DNA from: Pseudomonadota bacterium
GTDB lineage: Bacteria > Pseudomonadota > Gammaproteobacteria > Pseudomonadales > Oceanobacteraceae
Length of the DNA stretch: 64,000 bases
Assembly (NCBI GenBank): GCA_030145845.1
Contig: JAIXHJ010000008.1
Span: 62,001 to 126,000 of the forward strand
Direction of reading: 5' to 3'
Shown here: piece after piece, positions 49,779 to 55,681 of the stretch
Layout of the letters: each line of letters starts with the position of its first letter
Numbering within the stretch: position 1 is the stretch's first letter
Program-made: the position numbers and the translations under genes
The notes under the pieces: model-generated
What the model was told of the DNA's origin: nothing
The model's input: only the letters and a program-made list of their open reading frames with translations
The model's database searches: none

Positions 49779-50288
49779 TTACCGGCTAATCTGCTGGCTG
49801 CTGCTGGTGCAGTAGTGATTCAGGCTGGCTTCCTGTTTACCTGTGCTGTGGCGCAGCGATGACAGGCAGCTGGCGACACTCGGACGGGGCTCAACGGTCA
49901 TCCGGCCATCGGCAATATGAATTTCATAGGTATAACGGTAGGGCGCGAAACGGATCCAGCCGGTTAGCTGCAGCGGGGCGGAAACACAGCGGTAAATAGC
50001 AGACTCACCAGCGGCCAGACTGCGGTCTGATGGCGGGTTATAGAAACGCCACTGGTTCAGCCGGCCACGCTGTATATCCTCGCGGCACTGCTGCAGGGAA
50101 GTGACGTCGCGGTTACGGAAAAACAGGGTTTTACTGCTGCTGGTACCCTGAACTTTCAGGGTCGCAACCAGCCACACCGCGTCTCCGGGGGCTGCCTGTG
50201 TCTGTGCCGGTAACAGGAGCAGGGATGACAGCAGGGCTGTACTCAGCAGGGTTTTCCGGGCAGCAGCTAATGGCGCCATGCTCAGCAT
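49779..50288 (-). CDS. Secreted hypothetical protein
   Basis: An unrecognised protein of about 169 residues with a clear signal peptide (ALLSSLLLLPAQTQA), several cysteines (C at QQCREDIQR, YRCVS, SCLSSL, NHYCTSS) that may form disulfides, and a mixed alpha/beta mature part. The start at 50288 is preferred since GCGGAG lies seven bases upstream; a longer ATG start at 50303 is less well placed. It is leftward and immediately downstream of a periplasmic binding protein gene, from which it is separated by 132 bases. It may share that operon. No family assignment. Confidence 0.72.
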   Translation of the reverse strand: MLSMAPLAAARKTLLSTALLSSLLLLPAQTQAAPGDAVWLVATLKVQGTSSSKTLFFRNRDVTSLQQCREDIQRGRLNQWRFYNPPSDRSLAAGESAIYRCVSAPLQLTGWIRFAPYRYTYEIHIADGRMTVEPRPSVASCLSSLRHSTGKQEASLNHYCTSSSQQISR

Positions 50289-50420
50289 GATTTTTCTCCG
50301 CATTGAATTGGGTGTCTGCCATGATCCCTGGCCTGAATGCAGTCCTGCAGGCTCATGGTAAAAGACGACACGCTGCGGATGTGTAAGGAAGCGTCGGAAA
50401 GCGCGCTTTTTACAACGGCC

Positions 50421-51374
50421 TTACATAGGGCGGATGATATGCACCGGACTGCGCAGGTCACGCGCTGCGCTCTGGCCAGTGGCGGCCTGTTCCAGCAGCT
50501 GATACAGCTGCTGGCCCATGGCGTTGAAATCAATGCTGATCAGGGCGGTGGCCAGACCATCGTTCAGCAATTGCTGCTGTTCCGGCGTCATGATACCGGT
50601 CACGATCACCAGGCTGTGCCGGGCGAGTGTATGGCGGTAGGGTGTGAGCTGCCGGCGGAAGGCCTGCAGGTCTTTCAGTGGCCATGAGCCGACGGCAATC
50701 AGTACGGTATTGTGTGGGTCTTCCAGCGTGATCCGGATCTGCTGCAGTGCCCGTTCATGATCATCGCCGTTATACCAGGGGCAGCGCAGGTTTTCCCGCC
50801 AGCCGTTCACGCCCTGCAGGCTTTTATCTGCCGGCCAGCGCGGATCGCCGCTGAGCTGGCGGCGGACTCCCAGAATACGGTAGTTCAGATTGGTATCGTC
50901 GGCGGAGGTCATCAGGCAGAGAGTGCCCCCCTGCGGATGCTGCTGTTGAATAACCTGAGCCGCCAGACGGCCGATTTCTTCGTTATCCGGGCCGACATAG
51001 GCCTGGCTGAGATGGCGGTACTCCGGGGAAAAGGGCGAATCATAGGCAATCACAGGGACTGAGCTGCCGCGCAGCGCATCGGCAATGATATCGGAGCGTG
51101 TGACTGAGATACCCAGGGCGTCATAGCCGGCACTTTTCAGGGCATTGCGGATAGCCGTCTGCTGGTATCTCGGGTTTGATTCATAGTCGTCACCGAGCAG
51201 TTCACAGTGGTTGCCGGCACTGCGGGCGGCCTGCTCACAGCCCTGCTGGACAGCAATGAAATTGCGGTCGGAGGTACTTTTGGCGACCACGCCGAATGTC
51301 AGCCCCTGGGCAGAGCACAGACTGCTGGCCATCAGGGTCAGCGCTGTTGTGGCTGTCAGTAACAGGTGTTTCAT
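50421..51374 (-). CDS. Periplasmic sugar-binding-type protein, orphan
   Basis: A 317-residue periplasmic binding protein with a signal peptide (LLLTATTALTLMASSLCSAQ) and the type-1 periplasmic binding fold: TFGVVAKSTSDRNFIAVQQG, VPVIAYDSPFSPEYRH, YVGPDNEEIGRLAAQVI, and ATALISIDFNAMGQQLYQLL near the end. It resembles the ribose/TorT-like Peripla_BP_4 proteins. The ATG at 51374 has AAGGA at correct distance. No ABC ATPase or permease is next to it, so it may be a chemosensory or two-component ligand sensor (compare TorT) rather than a transporter part. The ligand is unknown. Confidence 0.82.
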   Translation of the reverse strand: MKHLLLTATTALTLMASSLCSAQGLTFGVVAKSTSDRNFIAVQQGCEQAARSAGNHCELLGDDYESNPRYQQTAIRNALKSAGYDALGISVTRSDIIADALRGSSVPVIAYDSPFSPEYRHLSQAYVGPDNEEIGRLAAQVIQQQHPQGGTLCLMTSADDTNLNYRILGVRRQLSGDPRWPADKSLQGVNGWRENLRCPWYNGDDHERALQQIRITLEDPHNTVLIAVGSWPLKDLQAFRRQLTPYRHTLARHSLVIVTGIMTPEQQQLLNDGLATALISIDFNAMGQQLYQLLEQAATGQSAARDLRSPVHIIRPM

Positions 51375-51465
51375 CGGCCGCATCCTTCGCCTGAGAGAAA
51401 CTCACTCAAGCATAGCAGAACCGCAGCGGTTGGTATGACCCGTGACTGACAGGGGAATGCGGCGC

Positions 51466-52107
51466 TTACTGGCGGGCCTGAATCAGGCGCGAAGAGTAAC
51501 TCTGCAGTCCGGGGCGGGTGTCGCCGGCTCTGCTGGCCTGATAGATAATTTCTGCCTGGCCGGTGTTATCCAGAAAAACGCTTATGCCGCCCTGCTGGGT
51601 GATAAAGCCGGTCATATCGATGTTCTGGTCGATAATCTGTTGCTCCAGCCAGTGGCTGCCATCGTAAATGCGGGCATAGAGAATACCGTTACCTACGCTG
51701 CCATTGCCGCTGTTCAGGTTATAGGCGATCCAGGCGATGACCGCCTGACCATCCCTGTTGATGGCTACCGCCGGCGAACGGATGGCGTTGTGGCGGTAAT
51801 TCTGCAGCAGATCGCTGGTTGCCAGAAGGGCGGCGGTAAAATGGCTGAAGCAGACGTTGCGGCCATTCAGCCACACCATAAGATCATCCACGGTGCCGTT
51901 ATTTTTTCTGTTGTTACAGTCTGTCGGCCGTGCCCCGGGCGCTTCCTTCAATGGCTCGGGCCGGCTCCAGTGGCGCTGATCATATTGCTCAGCGGTATCG
52001 CTCTTCCCCCTCGCGTTAAGCGCGGATGAGGAAGCGGTATCAGACTGGCTGGCCAGTATCAGTAACAGTAAAAGACCATACAGTGAAGAATACTTTCCGG
52101 CTGGCAT
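51466..52107 (-). CDS. Shortened paralogue of the neighbouring lipoproteins
   Basis: A 213-residue protein beginning with a signal-like segment (LYGLLLLLILASQS) but without a lipobox cysteine. Its C-terminal ~150 residues align with the ends of the two following lipoproteins: AVAINRDGQAVIAWIAYNLN, GNGILYARIYDGSHWLEQQI and GGISVFLDNTGQAEIIY match AVIVWVGYD..., LYSRFYDGSQW... and GGLGVYLDNSDDVTVAY. The central ~290 residues of those are absent. The start is supported by a leader (CCGGAGTGTTT then ATG) like those of the paralogues, and an upstream inverted repeat is conserved. It may be a working minimal form or a decayed copy. Confidence 0.78.
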   Translation of the reverse strand: MPAGKYSSLYGLLLLLILASQSDTASSSALNARGKSDTAEQYDQRHWSRPEPLKEAPGARPTDCNNRKNNGTVDDLMVWLNGRNVCFSHFTAALLATSDLLQNYRHNAIRSPAVAINRDGQAVIAWIAYNLNSGNGSVGNGILYARIYDGSHWLEQQIIDQNIDMTGFITQQGGISVFLDNTGQAEIIYQASRAGDTRPGLQSYSSRLIQARQ

Positions 52108-52167
52108 AAACACTCCGGGTTGTTCTGGTAGTGTGCGGATAATTGTCGCTGTTGCCGCACCGGTTTT

Positions 52168-52187
52168 CTTCACCCGTCCGGGTGAAG
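52168..52187. promoter_or_regulatory. Inverted repeat TTCACC-N6-GGTGAA (copy A)
   Basis: CTTCACCCG-TC-CGGGTGAAG, a nearly perfect 20-bp dyad located 61 bases before the shortened paralogue. The same half-sites, TTCACC and GGTGAA six bases apart, occur upstream of the other two paralogous genes. Candidate operator of an unknown regulator. Confidence 0.55.
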
Positions 52188-52205
52188 CCGCTGTTTTTTC
52201 GGAAA

Positions 52206-52233
52206 TAAAAAAAGCCGCTGACAATCAGCGGCT
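52206..52233 (-). terminator. Rho-independent terminator
   Basis: AGCCGCTGA-CAA-TCAGCGGCT with a T7 run on the minus strand, 47 bases after the stop of the long lipoprotein gene. A very similar stem recurs at 53912-53936. Confidence 0.85.
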
Positions 52234-52279
52234 GACAGGTAGAGCATGGAAATAAATTATAATTATGAGAGAGCGGGTA

Positions 52280-53791
52280 TCAGTCGATTACACGACGTGA
52301 AAAAAACAGCTGTGGTTCGTTGTTTGCCTGGCCGTCTTTATAAGCCGTGTAGGCAACGGTAACATCATCCGAGTTATCAAGATAAACGCCAAGACCGCCT
52401 TTTATGATCTGATAATTTTCTACGTTGATGCCACTGTCTATGGTCTGCACAGCCAGCCATTGGCTGCCATCATAAAAACGAGAGTATAAGGTGCCGGCGC
52501 TGACAGAGCTTCCTGCCGGAGCATCATCGTAACCTACCCAGACAATAACGGCTTTACCATTATCGTTGATGGTGCCTGTAGCTCCGGTAATGTAGCTGTG
52601 GCTGTTCGTATTTTGAGTGGCGCTGCCAAAAGAGCCGGCATCTGAAATACTGGTGAACAGCGAGTTATTTTTCTCCCAGATGCTCAGACCATAGTCAGCA
52701 CCGGAACTCAGGTAATTGCGGATGGGGGCAGAAGCTGAAAGGTTGGTATCCAGGTTGACCGAGGCAGCAAAACCGGCGCCGTTATTAAAACTGCTCTCCA
52801 GGGTATTGCCATCGATGTACAACACCAGAGCATGGTTGGCATCGTTGACCGCCATGGTTGCTGCGCCTGTACCTGTGGCACCCGACGAGCCAGGGAGAAC
52901 GCTCTGTGAACCCAGAACACCGTCTGTTAATGTCGACATATAGAGGCTTGAGCTGAAAGAGCTGGCGTCATCTGAGTCGAGTAACAGAATCTGACTGTCA
53001 CCATCATTCGCCGATCCCAGGGAGACAATCTCTTTAGCACCGACCGAGGTCGCCGGAGTTGTGTTAGTGGTAAGACAACTATCTGAACCGTCACATGACA
53101 GCAGTCGGCCAGTATTATTATCAGTGCGCCAGAAAGACAGGGAAACCCGGCCGTCGTCGGACAGATCCACAAGCAGATTATCTATGTTGTTGCAGCTATA
53201 GTCGGCGCCGGATTGTGTCAGGGAGCGGGGTCTGAAGTGGTAGTTGAGCCAGTTTGTTCCGTCGTAGCGGAAATAACGGATGTGGCATTCAGTATAGTGA
53301 GTCCAGGCGTTTCTGTTCATGTAGGTATCCGCCACCACAGCTTTACCATTGGCATTGGTGGCCAGCGTTGTATTGCTGACACCGCTGTAACTACCGAACT
53401 GGGTGCCGGAATCCCAGTTGCTGCCATCAAATTCGCGGGCCATCAATTGACCACCATTGCTGTATAAAAGTATTGGTTTATTTGCTGCCCCGCTGAGATG
53501 CAGATTGTTAACGGTTACAGAACCATCGGCCAGGGATTCCGGTGTTGACCAACTGGTCTGTGGCAGGTTGGCGCTACTGTCATCGCCTGTGCTGCTGTCA
53601 CCCGGGGAGTTGTCGCCTGAAGTGTTGTCGCCTGAGGTGTTGTCACCACTTTCATCGTTACCCGGGTTGTTATCACCAGCAGATGGCGTGCCCGGATTTT
53701 CACTGTCGCTACCTGATGATGAGCCACCACAGCCGGTTAATACCAGCGTCGAAGACGCCATCAGTGCCAGGAAAATCTTACTGAATTGCAT
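52280..53791 (-). CDS. Lipoprotein with beta-propeller-like repeats (paralogue 1)
   Basis: A 503-residue lipoprotein: MQFSKIFLALMASSTLVLTG then Cys21 (lipobox), a Ser/Gly/Asp-rich low-complexity linker (about residues 22-75, with repeated GDNTSGD units) and a long beta-rich domain. Repeated units such as REFDGSNW, FRYDGTNW and RFYDGSQW, each after hydrophobic strands like NGKAVVADTY or NGKAVIVWVG, suggest a BNR/Asp-box-like propeller. I know no established function. It is very similar to the next paralogue in gene start, linker and order of motifs. It should be anchored in the outer membrane and exposed to the periplasm or surface (inference). Confidence 0.82.
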   Translation of the reverse strand: MQFSKIFLALMASSTLVLTGCGGSSSGSDSENPGTPSAGDNNPGNDESGDNTSGDNTSGDNSPGDSSTGDDSSANLPQTSWSTPESLADGSVTVNNLHLSGAANKPILLYSNGGQLMAREFDGSNWDSGTQFGSYSGVSNTTLATNANGKAVVADTYMNRNAWTHYTECHIRYFRYDGTNWLNYHFRPRSLTQSGADYSCNNIDNLLVDLSDDGRVSLSFWRTDNNTGRLLSCDGSDSCLTTNTTPATSVGAKEIVSLGSANDGDSQILLLDSDDASSFSSSLYMSTLTDGVLGSQSVLPGSSGATGTGAATMAVNDANHALVLYIDGNTLESSFNNGAGFAASVNLDTNLSASAPIRNYLSSGADYGLSIWEKNNSLFTSISDAGSFGSATQNTNSHSYITGATGTINDNGKAVIVWVGYDDAPAGSSVSAGTLYSRFYDGSQWLAVQTIDSGINVENYQIIKGGLGVYLDNSDDVTVAYTAYKDGQANNEPQLFFSRRVID

Positions 53792-53840
53792 AAATGCTCC
53801 GTGCGTTTATCTGAGAATTATAAAACCGAAGCTATTTTCG

Positions 53841-53879
53841 TTTTACTGCAGGGTAAAATTCTTCACCCCGAAAGGTGAA
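53841..53879. promoter_or_regulatory. Tandem inverted repeats upstream of paralogue 1 (copy B)
   Basis: Two dyads: TTTTAC-N6-GTAAAA (53841-53858) and TTCACC-N6-GGTGAA (53862-53879), with centres exactly 21 bp apart, that is two helical turns. The same pair with the same spacing stands upstream of paralogue 2, and the second dyad upstream of the shortened gene. Candidate cooperative operator. Confidence 0.6.
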
Positions 53880-53911
53880 TGGTTCGGATTTTAAAAAATA
53901 ATTTATAAATT

Positions 53912-53936
53912 AAAAAAGCCGCTGAATATCAGCGGC
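53912..53936 (-). terminator. Rho-independent terminator
   Basis: GCCGCTGA-ATA-TCAGCGGC with T6 on the minus strand. It lies 130 bases after the stop of paralogue 2 and is nearly the same as the terminator at 52206-52233, so the pair may have been copied with the genes. Confidence 0.8.
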
Positions 53937-54019
53937 GATTTCATGGGAATTTCCAGAGGTGGCATCCCTGCAGAAATATCGTCCATGATATCTCTGAAAA
54001 ACCCGGTAAGGTTCCTGAC

Positions 54020-54038
54020 AGGCACTTTCTCAGTGCCT
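54020..54038. other. Small hairpin after paralogue 2
   Basis: AGGCACT-TTCTC-AGTGCCT, a 7-bp stem 28 bases downstream of the stop at 54066, without a T-run. It may be a pause or part of a bipartite terminator with the hairpin at 53912. Confidence 0.35.
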
Positions 54039-54065
54039 GATGTTTTCAGTTTTTACAAGAGGTAA

Positions 54066-55526
54066 TCAATCGATTGTCCGGCGCGTATAAAACGTTTTAG
54101 GTTCGGTGGTTGATTGTGATGCTTTATAGGCGTTATAAACCAGGGTTACGTCATCGGAATTATCCAGATAAACGCCCAGACCACCTTTAACTGACAGGAA
54201 CGATGCTACATCGATATCGCTGTCGATGGTCTCTATATCCTGCCAGCTGCTGCCATCATAAAAGCGGGAATAAATCGTACCATTGCTGAGGGTCTGGGTT
54301 ACCGCATCAGCATCGTAGCCCAACCAGACGATAACGGCTTTACCATTGTCGTTGATTGCACCGGTAACCGACCGGATCACATCATTATTTTGTGGGTGGA
54401 CTGTGGTGCCAGCGAATGAACCGGCATCCGAAATATTGGTTTTCAGATCAGTCCAGTCATTTACCCACAGGCTTAAACCATAGTCTGCACCGGCACTGAG
54501 ATAAGCTTCCAGCGTAGCCTCGTAGTTCGCACCGGCAAGATCGTCATCCAGCTCAACACTGGTGGCAAAGCCAGAGCCGTTGTCAAAGCGCGCCTGCAGT
54601 GTGTTGTTGGCATTGAACAGTGCCAGGGCATGATTGGCATCGTTCACCGCAATTCGTGCTAAACGGGAATTTCCCGGATAATCACCAATATTCGCTGACG
54701 AACCTATGTTGCCATCGGAGAAACTGGTGGCAAATACACCGGATTTGCTGGTGCCAAATTTACTGGTTTCCATTTTGAGGATATAGCCTTCACCAGCGTT
54801 GCCCATACCCAGAGCGACGGCGTTGTAGTCGCTGCCCAGTGTTGCCGGAGAGGTCGTTGCATCCGTTACACAGGTATCCGTGCTGTCACAGCCCTGAACG
54901 CGGCCTTTGTTTGAAGTAAGGTCACTGCGGTTCCAGATCAGAGCTACGCTGTCATCATCGGATAACGCGATTTTCAGATCATCGACATTATGGCAGGTGT
55001 AGTTATTACTTGAATTAATCAGATGGCGTGCTCGGCTGTAGTCACCCCATTGGGTGCCATTGTAGCGGTAGTAATCCAGGCGGCACTCTGTGAAGCCTGT
55101 GGCTGAATTCGTGGCGTTATTTTCCAGAGCCAGCACGGCTTTGCCGTTAGCATTGAATGCCCAGCTGATATCGTGGGTGCCATCGTAGGCGGCAAGCTGA
55201 TGTGCGCTGCTCCAGTTACTGCCGTCGAACTCGCGAATATAGAGCAAGCCGCTTTTGCTATAGGCCATCATCGGTTTGTTAGCGCTACCGCCGACCATTA
55301 GCCCGGATACTGTAACTGAGCCATCTTCCAGTTCTGTCGGTGTGGACCAGCTGGCCTGAGCTGTTGTACCGGTGCCACTGCCTGAATCGCCACTACCGCT
55401 GTCGCTGCTGCCTGAGTCGCCGCTGTTGACCGTGTCACTGCTTCCGGAAGAAGAGGAACCGCCACAGGCCGTTAACAGAAGGGAAGAAGACGCCAGTAGC
55501 GCCACAAACAGTTTGCTGAGTTGCAT
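54066..55526 (-). CDS. Lipoprotein with beta-propeller-like repeats (paralogue 2)
   Basis: A 486-residue lipoprotein closely related to the previous one: MQLSKLFVALLASSSLLLTA then Cys21, a shorter Ser/Gly/Asp linker (DSGSSDSGSGDSGSG), and the same sequence of repeat motifs REFDGSNWSS, YYRYNGTQWGDY, SRFYDGSSWQDI, ending FLSVKGGLGVYLDNSDDV. Conserved central cysteine-bearing segments (VQGCDSTDTCV here, LSCDGSDSCLT in the other) suggest a disulfide. Regulatory leader and terminators are also shared. Likely a recent duplication product. It is the upstream member of the array (transcription is leftward). Function unknown. Confidence 0.82.
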   Translation of the reverse strand: MQLSKLFVALLASSSLLLTACGGSSSSGSSDTVNSGDSGSSDSGSGDSGSGTGTTAQASWSTPTELEDGSVTVSGLMVGGSANKPMMAYSKSGLLYIREFDGSNWSSAHQLAAYDGTHDISWAFNANGKAVLALENNATNSATGFTECRLDYYRYNGTQWGDYSRARHLINSSNNYTCHNVDDLKIALSDDDSVALIWNRSDLTSNKGRVQGCDSTDTCVTDATTSPATLGSDYNAVALGMGNAGEGYILKMETSKFGTSKSGVFATSFSDGNIGSSANIGDYPGNSRLARIAVNDANHALALFNANNTLQARFDNGSGFATSVELDDDLAGANYEATLEAYLSAGADYGLSLWVNDWTDLKTNISDAGSFAGTTVHPQNNDVIRSVTGAINDNGKAVIVWLGYDADAVTQTLSNGTIYSRFYDGSSWQDIETIDSDIDVASFLSVKGGLGVYLDNSDDVTLVYNAYKASQSTTEPKTFYTRRTID

Positions 55527-55571
55527 AAGTGCTCCGTGCTTTCATGAATAAAAAACCGAAGCAATTTTCAC

Positions 55572-55609
55572 TTTACCGGATGGTAAGATTCTTCACCTGA
55601 TGGGGTGAA
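55572..55609. promoter_or_regulatory. Tandem inverted repeats upstream of paralogue 2 (copy C)
   Basis: TTTAC-N6-GTAAg (55572-55587) and TTCACC-N6-GGTGAA (55592-55609), centres 21 bp apart as in copy B. The TTCACC dyad is 66 bases before the start codon. Strong parallel with copy B, so shared regulation is likely. Confidence 0.6.
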
Positions 55610-55630
55610 TGTAAATTTTTATGGGCGGGA

Positions 55631-55667
55631 TGCACAAAAAAACCGGCCAGTGGCCGGTTTTTTTGCA
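55631..55667 (-). terminator. Strong bidirectional terminator
   Basis: A7-CCGGCC-AGT-GGCCGG-T7, nearly symmetric, 15 bases after the transketolase stop. It can also stop rightward transcripts. Confidence 0.92.
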
Positions 55668-55681
55668 CGTACAGCGGTTGC

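Follow-up and report, generated by a model that had tools for sequence, protein, structure and literature searches.

Which control element, if any, ties together three neighbouring genes for exported proteins that match no named family? The locus lies in a 64,000-nucleotide stretch (hereafter the window) of a Pseudomonadota bacterium of the family Oceanobacteraceae (GCA_030145845.1, contig JAIXHJ010000008.1, positions 62,001 to 126,000). The array spans window positions 51466-55526, adjoins a transketolase gene, and consists of three tandem genes on the minus strand: gene 1 (54066..55526), encoding a 486-amino-acid (aa) lipoprotein predicted to form an eight-bladed beta-propeller, with the lipobox LTAC at residues 18-21; gene 2 (52280..53791), encoding a 503-aa lipoprotein with the lipobox LTGC; and gene 3 (51466..52107), encoding a 213-aa exported protein without a lipobox. 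The first-pass annotation of this DNA, made from its letters, had proposed three tandem genes with two lipoproteins of approximately 490 residues, and the genes and both lipoproteins are confirmed. The two long products, referred to here as family A, are 49% identical. As detailed below, comparison of sequences suggests that the array genes probably belong, as one arm, to a dedicated two-component regulon of surface lipoproteins.

All three genes are preceded by an inverted repeat of the form TTCACCC-N4-GGGTGAA (hereafter the operator), found on the minus strand as TTCACCCCATCAGGTGAA at 55592..55609, 65 nucleotides (nt) upstream of the start codon of gene 1, as TTCACCTTTCGGGGTGAA at 53862..53879, 70 nt upstream of that of gene 2, and as TTCACCCGGACGGGTGAA at 52169..52186, 61 nt upstream of that of gene 3. 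The operators common to the array genes, already noticed at first reading, are real and exceed chance. A search for TTCACCCNNNNGGGTGAA with at most one mismatch found the operator five times in the 4.08-Mb genome, compared with approximately 0.65 places expected by arithmetic assuming equal bases, and a reversed control pattern had no match in this genome. The five places precede the three array genes, a lipoprotein gene of a second family (family B) on contig C6 and, at C2:125255-125272, a hybrid histidine kinase gene. The looser pattern TTCACC-N(4-8)-GGTGAA matched 11 places, seven inside open reading frames (ORFs); the other four precede the three array genes and the family-B gene, whose site also falls inside the over-long start of a divergent ORF with shorter homologues. 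At the level of sequence the operator is therefore specific genome-wide, and since so rare an element is common to the array genes, a family-B lipoprotein and a kinase, they look like one sensor-controlled set. By eye, a putative -10 hexamer TATAAT, absent from the scan list, lies on the minus strand at 53817..53822, approximately 39 nt downstream of the gene 2 operator, and no good -35 element accompanies it, which suggests an activator.

The same association was found across relatives. Among 44 genomes of the family, 24 exact sites were located in 14 genomes of four genera, and the reversed control had no match. Twenty-one of the 24 lie directly before target genes (20 family-A or family-B lipoproteins and one gene 3) and end 38-70 nt before the start codon; all sites before such genes end 54-70 nt upstream except two at 38 nt, start codons having been re-chosen where the first start lay too far upstream of the gene. 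Two of the 20 lipoprotein-linked sites are probably one stretch of relative G042, whose contigs C79 and C69 (L029, L030) end in the same family-B gene, probably an assembly overlap. The other three exact sites precede large lipoproteins in G017 (approximately 134 nt) and G019 (approximately 363 nt) and, at 60 nt, another exported protein in G016. Counted from the genes, 27 of the 29 compiled A and B genes have an upstream 6+6 site with at most one mismatch (two of the 27, in G006 and G035, had been found via the site itself), the exceptions being the pair in G003. In that genome (L083:8393-10997) two LuxR-type proteins, one of which has two GerE stretches, come after the A/B pair. Outside the family, six sites were found in five of 188 genomes, one of which lies 70 nt upstream of a gene for a predicted lipoprotein, while the reversed control gave two matches in all 194 genomes. 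The operator also co-occurs with a NarL-type response regulator: scored at E<=1e-30, a cut-off set after the matches had been seen, the regulator is present in 16 of the 44 family genomes, and the exact site in 13 of these 16 versus one of the 28 others (Fisher 1.4e-7, relatedness ignored), so that 13 of the 14 genomes with an exact site have the regulator. Among 115 genomes of the order it was detected in six.

In the genome under study, the regulator gene is convergent with the hybrid histidine kinase gene on C2, the pair having been identified by homology; in the corresponding pair of G041 the kinase carries HisKA/HATPase domains and the regulator a receiver and a DNA-binding domain. In all eight loci of relatives compiled (L084-L091), the kinase gene lies on the same strand as a family-B gene and directly downstream of it. 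The kinase gene is thus placed, in terms of sequence, behind either an operator or an operator-bearing gene. Kinases of six such loci were aligned with the own one (for L085 and L086, recognition relied on the N-terminus only), and the membrane part is conserved in all seven; the motif NTIKTHxRLMY is likewise retained in 8/8 regulators aligned. The closest NCBIfam model to the two kinase cores scanned was NahK/ErcS' (E 8e-76 and 8e-88), and the regulators matched the MadR, MctR, NarL and ErdR models among others. All these matches stay below the curated cut-offs, and the kinase has a different N-terminal sensor part.

Taken together, these observations suggest a circuit in which the polytopic hybrid kinase, through its membrane sensor part, would pass phosphate to the NarL/GerE-type regulator. 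The latter would bind TTCACCC-N4-GGGTGAA approximately 60 nt upstream of start codons, and the bound regulator would activate the kinase gene along with a small number of lipoprotein genes; the predicted targets in this genome are the three array genes, the C6 family-B lipoprotein and the C2 kinase.

What the long array genes would contribute to such a circuit can be judged from their products. Both have the lipobox cysteine at position 21, followed by a Ser/Gly/Asp-rich linker and then the domain. The residues at this point are CGG, with Gly and not Asp at position +2; a lipoprotein sorting rule on the +2 residue is known from E. coli, and an outer-membrane location appears plausible for the long proteins. 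The array proteins gave no family above cut-off in Pfam and NCBIfam, phmmer found no PDB chain at E<=10 for the gene 1 product, and the closest named record was a metagenome-assembled genome titled Oceanospirillaceae bacterium. In sequence terms, the two long products are members of a narrow family without a name. Family-A domains occur in six of the 44 family genomes (G000, G003, G038, G039, G041 and G042), nine more matching only within residues 1-136, mostly leader, and none but the own genome matched at E<=1e-8 among 95 genomes of the order. The available part of a proteomics paper (PMC6304351) contains nothing on the array proteins.

An AlphaFold2 model of the gene 1 product, built from four sequences, reached a predicted local distance difference test score (pLDDT) of 70.7 and a predicted template modelling (TM) score of 0.71 in the best of five models (pLDDT 49.7-64.1 in the other four). 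It contains 30 strands of at least three residues, one helix and some shorter strands, including a two-residue strand in the N-terminal WSTPTEL positioned to close the last blade, and we read the strands as eight four-stranded blades of a predicted beta-propeller. Similarity between repeats is clear only for pairs 1-7, 2-7 and 5-7 (0/300 shuffles each), with a mean z of approximately 1.05 over all 28 pairs. Foldseek retrieved 327 PDB chains at E<=0.001, the highest-ranking of which we take from their titles to be propellers. The top 14 rows were PLL/PHL lectins of Photorhabdus (E 8e-10 to 1e-7; TM 0.38-0.44 by query and 0.50-0.59 by target; identity 9-12%), followed by sialidases and other entries. 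The propeller suggested by the first-pass annotation is thus supported by structure prediction for gene 1. Four domain cysteines (C148, C178, C213 and C219) are invariant across the four aligned proteins, which fits an exported domain. PLL lectins have seven four-stranded blades with sites between them, according to the accessible portion of PMC6943638. The modelled gene 1 product resembles these best Foldseek matches in its four-stranded blades and differs from them in being lipid-anchored and in having, by strand count, eight blades; with that count, 9-12% identity and no phmmer match, it was not assigned to the PLL/PHL family. The long products would accordingly be lipid-anchored propellers, most likely in the outer membrane, tethered there by a flexible Ser/Gly/Asp linker. 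They might bind an outside ligand, for which the lectin-like matches allow the guess of a glycan.

Gene 3 is different. It had been described as a shortened lipoprotein that keeps only the C-terminal portion; its leader, LLLLILASQSDTA, is however a plain signal peptide without Cys, and the protein is not a lipoprotein. The C-terminal portion itself is clearly present, since the product matches the last 102-104 residues of the long proteins at 35-37% identity, residues 105-164 corresponding to repeat 7 (z 19.5) and 164-213 to repeat 8 (z 11.9; 0/400 shuffles each), but the first-strand motif WSxPxxL also seems to be kept (residues 38-66 against gene 1, z 3.2; 4/400 shuffles reach the score). 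The diverged stretch between them, residues 66-105, has no clear match to any repeat, so that gene 3 looks like a closing strand, an unrecognised blade-sized stretch and two blades. In tblastn, its first half aligned in its own frame to gene 2 residues 71-195 (23%, E 4e-5) and may derive from repeats 1-2; around gene 3, nothing convincing was found in other frames as a remnant of lost repeats. The model (pLDDT 55.8) is confident only over approximately residues 105-210, that is, two blades, and poor over 1-104; its Foldseek matches are weak (best E 1.2e-3). Third-position GC is 0.67; five neighbours have 0.62-0.71, and the two long genes 0.54-0.55. The tree branch is long (1.83 changes per column), and the position of gene 3 in the tree is not fixable because of long branches. 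No copy was found in eight other genomes of the genus (one 86% complete), where the gene 3 query returned long family-A proteins (one cut at a contig end) or nothing; in G042 the place after gene 2 is taken by a family-B gene. Disrupted propellers and fragments beside intact ones are described in the accessible part of PMC9218822. The gene 3 product is probably a diverged, non-lipidated derivative of two to three blades that remained in the regulon.

The history of the array was approached by comparing the 5' cassette of each gene (95 nt upstream plus 69 nt of leader) with its domain. Window gene 2 is 87% identical to G042 gene 1 in the cassette and 50% in the domain, whereas it is 63% and 90% identical, respectively, to G042 gene 2; the latter shares 92% of its cassette and 14% of its domain with the G042 family-B gene. 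Families A and B have no detectable homology (hhalign probability 0.5%; the A profile was shallow at Neff 1.8, and the start used for trimming two family-B rows is doubtful). Judged by sequence, promoter-leader cassettes have moved between neighbouring lipoprotein genes, in one case reaching a gene whose family seems unrelated. Genes 1 and 2 are 71% alike at their 5' ends and 48% in their domains; the gene 1 domain is 79-84% identical to one gene each in G038, G039, G041 and G042, and the domains of genes 1 and 2 are 83-90% identical to their same-order counterparts in G042, so the split between genes 1 and 2 is older than the split from G042. The gene 3 cassette is 39-45% identical to those of the long genes, and the leader proposed to be common to all three does not extend to it, nor does the promoter.

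Could something other than the NarL-type regulator read the palindrome, or could it act without any reader? That the site is read by another regulator, such as an unlinked LuxR- or TetR-type protein, and that the kinase/regulator pair is only a target or neighbour, is rather unlikely in our estimation. It would account for the kinase gene having the operator upstream, as a target should, for the divergence of the own-genome regulator, and for the A and B genes of G003, which are flanked by other LuxR-type proteins and have no site; it leaves the co-occurrence of regulator and exact site (13/16 versus 1/28 genomes) unexplained, and autoregulated kinase operons are common. Several points nevertheless weigh against the two-component regulon itself. 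The C2 site lies approximately 190-240 nt from the kinase start, farther than the sites before lipoproteins; the intervening stretch holds short ORFs only (45-67 aa listed), one of them of 45 aa between site and kinase, and another ORF starts within the site. No kinase adjoins the family-B locus of this genome on C6, the regulator being on C2, and this regulator is only 35-40% identical to those of relatives. The E 1e-30 cut-off was chosen post hoc, and the counts are uncorrected for relatedness. G006 (89% complete) has a site and no detected regulator, G004, G015 and G020 have the regulator without an exact site (G004 has looser sites), three of the six order genomes with a similar regulator lie outside the family and lack the exact site, and G003 has A and B relatives, no palindrome and a weak regulator match (33%, 1.2e-25). 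The propeller model, moreover, rests on four sequences, with five models ranging from pLDDT 49.7 to 70.7 and lectin matches whose TM scores are 0.38-0.44 (query) and 0.50-0.59 (target). It is quite unlikely that the palindrome is instead a hairpin in the 5' untranslated RNA, acting as attenuator or stability element with no protein bound. It can form a perfect stem closed by a tetraloop, which is UUCG in several copies. In 31 lipoprotein-linked sites, 10 of 14 arm positions are invariant and the other four vary in 2, 3, 3 and 6 sites; the 217 pair cells (31 sites x 7 pairs) contain one two-sided change, seven one-sided changes that keep a wobble pair and five breaks. A single two-sided change in 217 cells points to a DNA operator, although the sites had been collected by their letters, which biases against variation; the TATAAT seen by eye in gene 2 lies downstream of the palindrome.

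A dedicated regulon must also be set against simpler accounts of the array. That it is an ordinary tandem array produced by whole-gene duplication of outer-membrane propeller lipoproteins, with the upstream repeats as leftovers, seems unlikely to us. Genes 1 and 2 are indeed paralogues, with similar 5' ends and similar terminator-like stems, and for them the expansion by duplication advanced in the first-pass annotation holds, as an old event predating the split from G042. The reason then given does not: cassettes travel apart from domains, so a common leader and operator are no proof of whole-gene duplication. The operator, in addition, precedes both the kinase gene and family-B genes, for whose domains no relation to family A could be detected, and gene 2 pairs with G042 gene 1 by cassette yet with G042 gene 2 by domain. 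That gene 3 is a decaying pseudogene which merely retains its operator is somewhat less likely than not: the long branch, the missing lipobox, the unmatched residues 66-105, the poor model over 1-104 and the presence in one of nine genus genomes would all agree with decay, while the open frame with its signal peptide, the perfect 7+7 operator, the neighbour-like third-position GC and the retention of repeats 7 and 8 at 35-37% speak for a maintained gene.

The family-B lipoproteins share a further feature. Eleven of the 21 compiled (11 genomes, three genera; loci L075, L084-L091, L098 and L106) end in the same 16 residues, QIKAELEGAGAEVEVK, and all 11 tailed genes lie behind an operator. Synonymous changes affect 14 of the 16 codons, and SKEEAE precedes the tail in eight of the 11 proteins. 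Compared with Pfam, the 11 tails match the C-terminus of ribosomal protein bL12 (PF00542) at E values from 3e-6 to 0.27, and one passes the cut-off; one tail compared with the PDB had a best E of 0.003. The family-B lipoprotein of this genome is encoded at L075:6469-7695 on C6. A self-contained surface-signalling circuit, in which the lipoproteins would be both input and output, the bL12-like tail would be presented or released and sensed by the kinase, and the propellers would serve as effectors exchangeable through cassette swaps, is a very improbable extension of the regulon.

As for the remaining elements of the region, intrinsic-terminator-like stems with a T-run and a consensus match follow gene 1 (GCCGCTGATATTCAGCGGC, 53918..53936, minus strand) and gene 2 (AGCCGCTGATTGTCAGCGGCT, 52213..52233, minus strand). 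Such stems had been thought common to all three genes; those after genes 1 and 2 are similar, but the scan lists no minus-strand terminator after gene 3. The six stems of the region do not exceed the number in shuffled sequences (mean 4.4, sd 2.1), and two of them are in fact operators. Downstream of gene 3, the window encodes a periplasmic sugar-binding-type protein (50421-51383; Pfam Peripla_BP_4) and a small exported protein of 174 aa without a Pfam match (49779-50303), a 44% relative of which (L031:2083-2550) lies directly upstream of family-A gene 1 in G039. An ORF of 670-710 aa, presumably a U32-type peptidase, separates the transketolase gene from gene 1 in 4/4 genus relatives examined (L029, L031, L032 and L033) and is absent from that place in the window (55527-55681).

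Two known systems offer comparison. ComP-ComA, like the proposed circuit, combines a polytopic kinase and a NarL-type regulator with a short palindrome upstream of the targets; it belongs to another phylum and uses another site. In the Rcs phosphorelay, RcsC is a hybrid kinase and RcsB a NarL-type regulator. By analogy, Rcs is the nearest circuit in spirit, since it links an outer-membrane lipoprotein (RcsF), a histidine kinase and a response regulator, as outlined in the accessible parts of PMC4942254, PMC13317618 and PMC11709261. Here, by contrast, the lipoproteins have propeller or unnamed domains and would themselves be targets, and the kinase core resembles NahK/ErcS' more than RcsC. Among the titles and abstract openings listed for operator half-sites, such lipoproteins and hybrid kinases, none mentions this regulon. 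In the reading proposed here, an anonymous lipoprotein array becomes a testable regulon made up of a single operator, the three array genes, one more lipoprotein and a sensor pair, and the movement of cassettes may be a route by which an existing control circuit captures new surface proteins.

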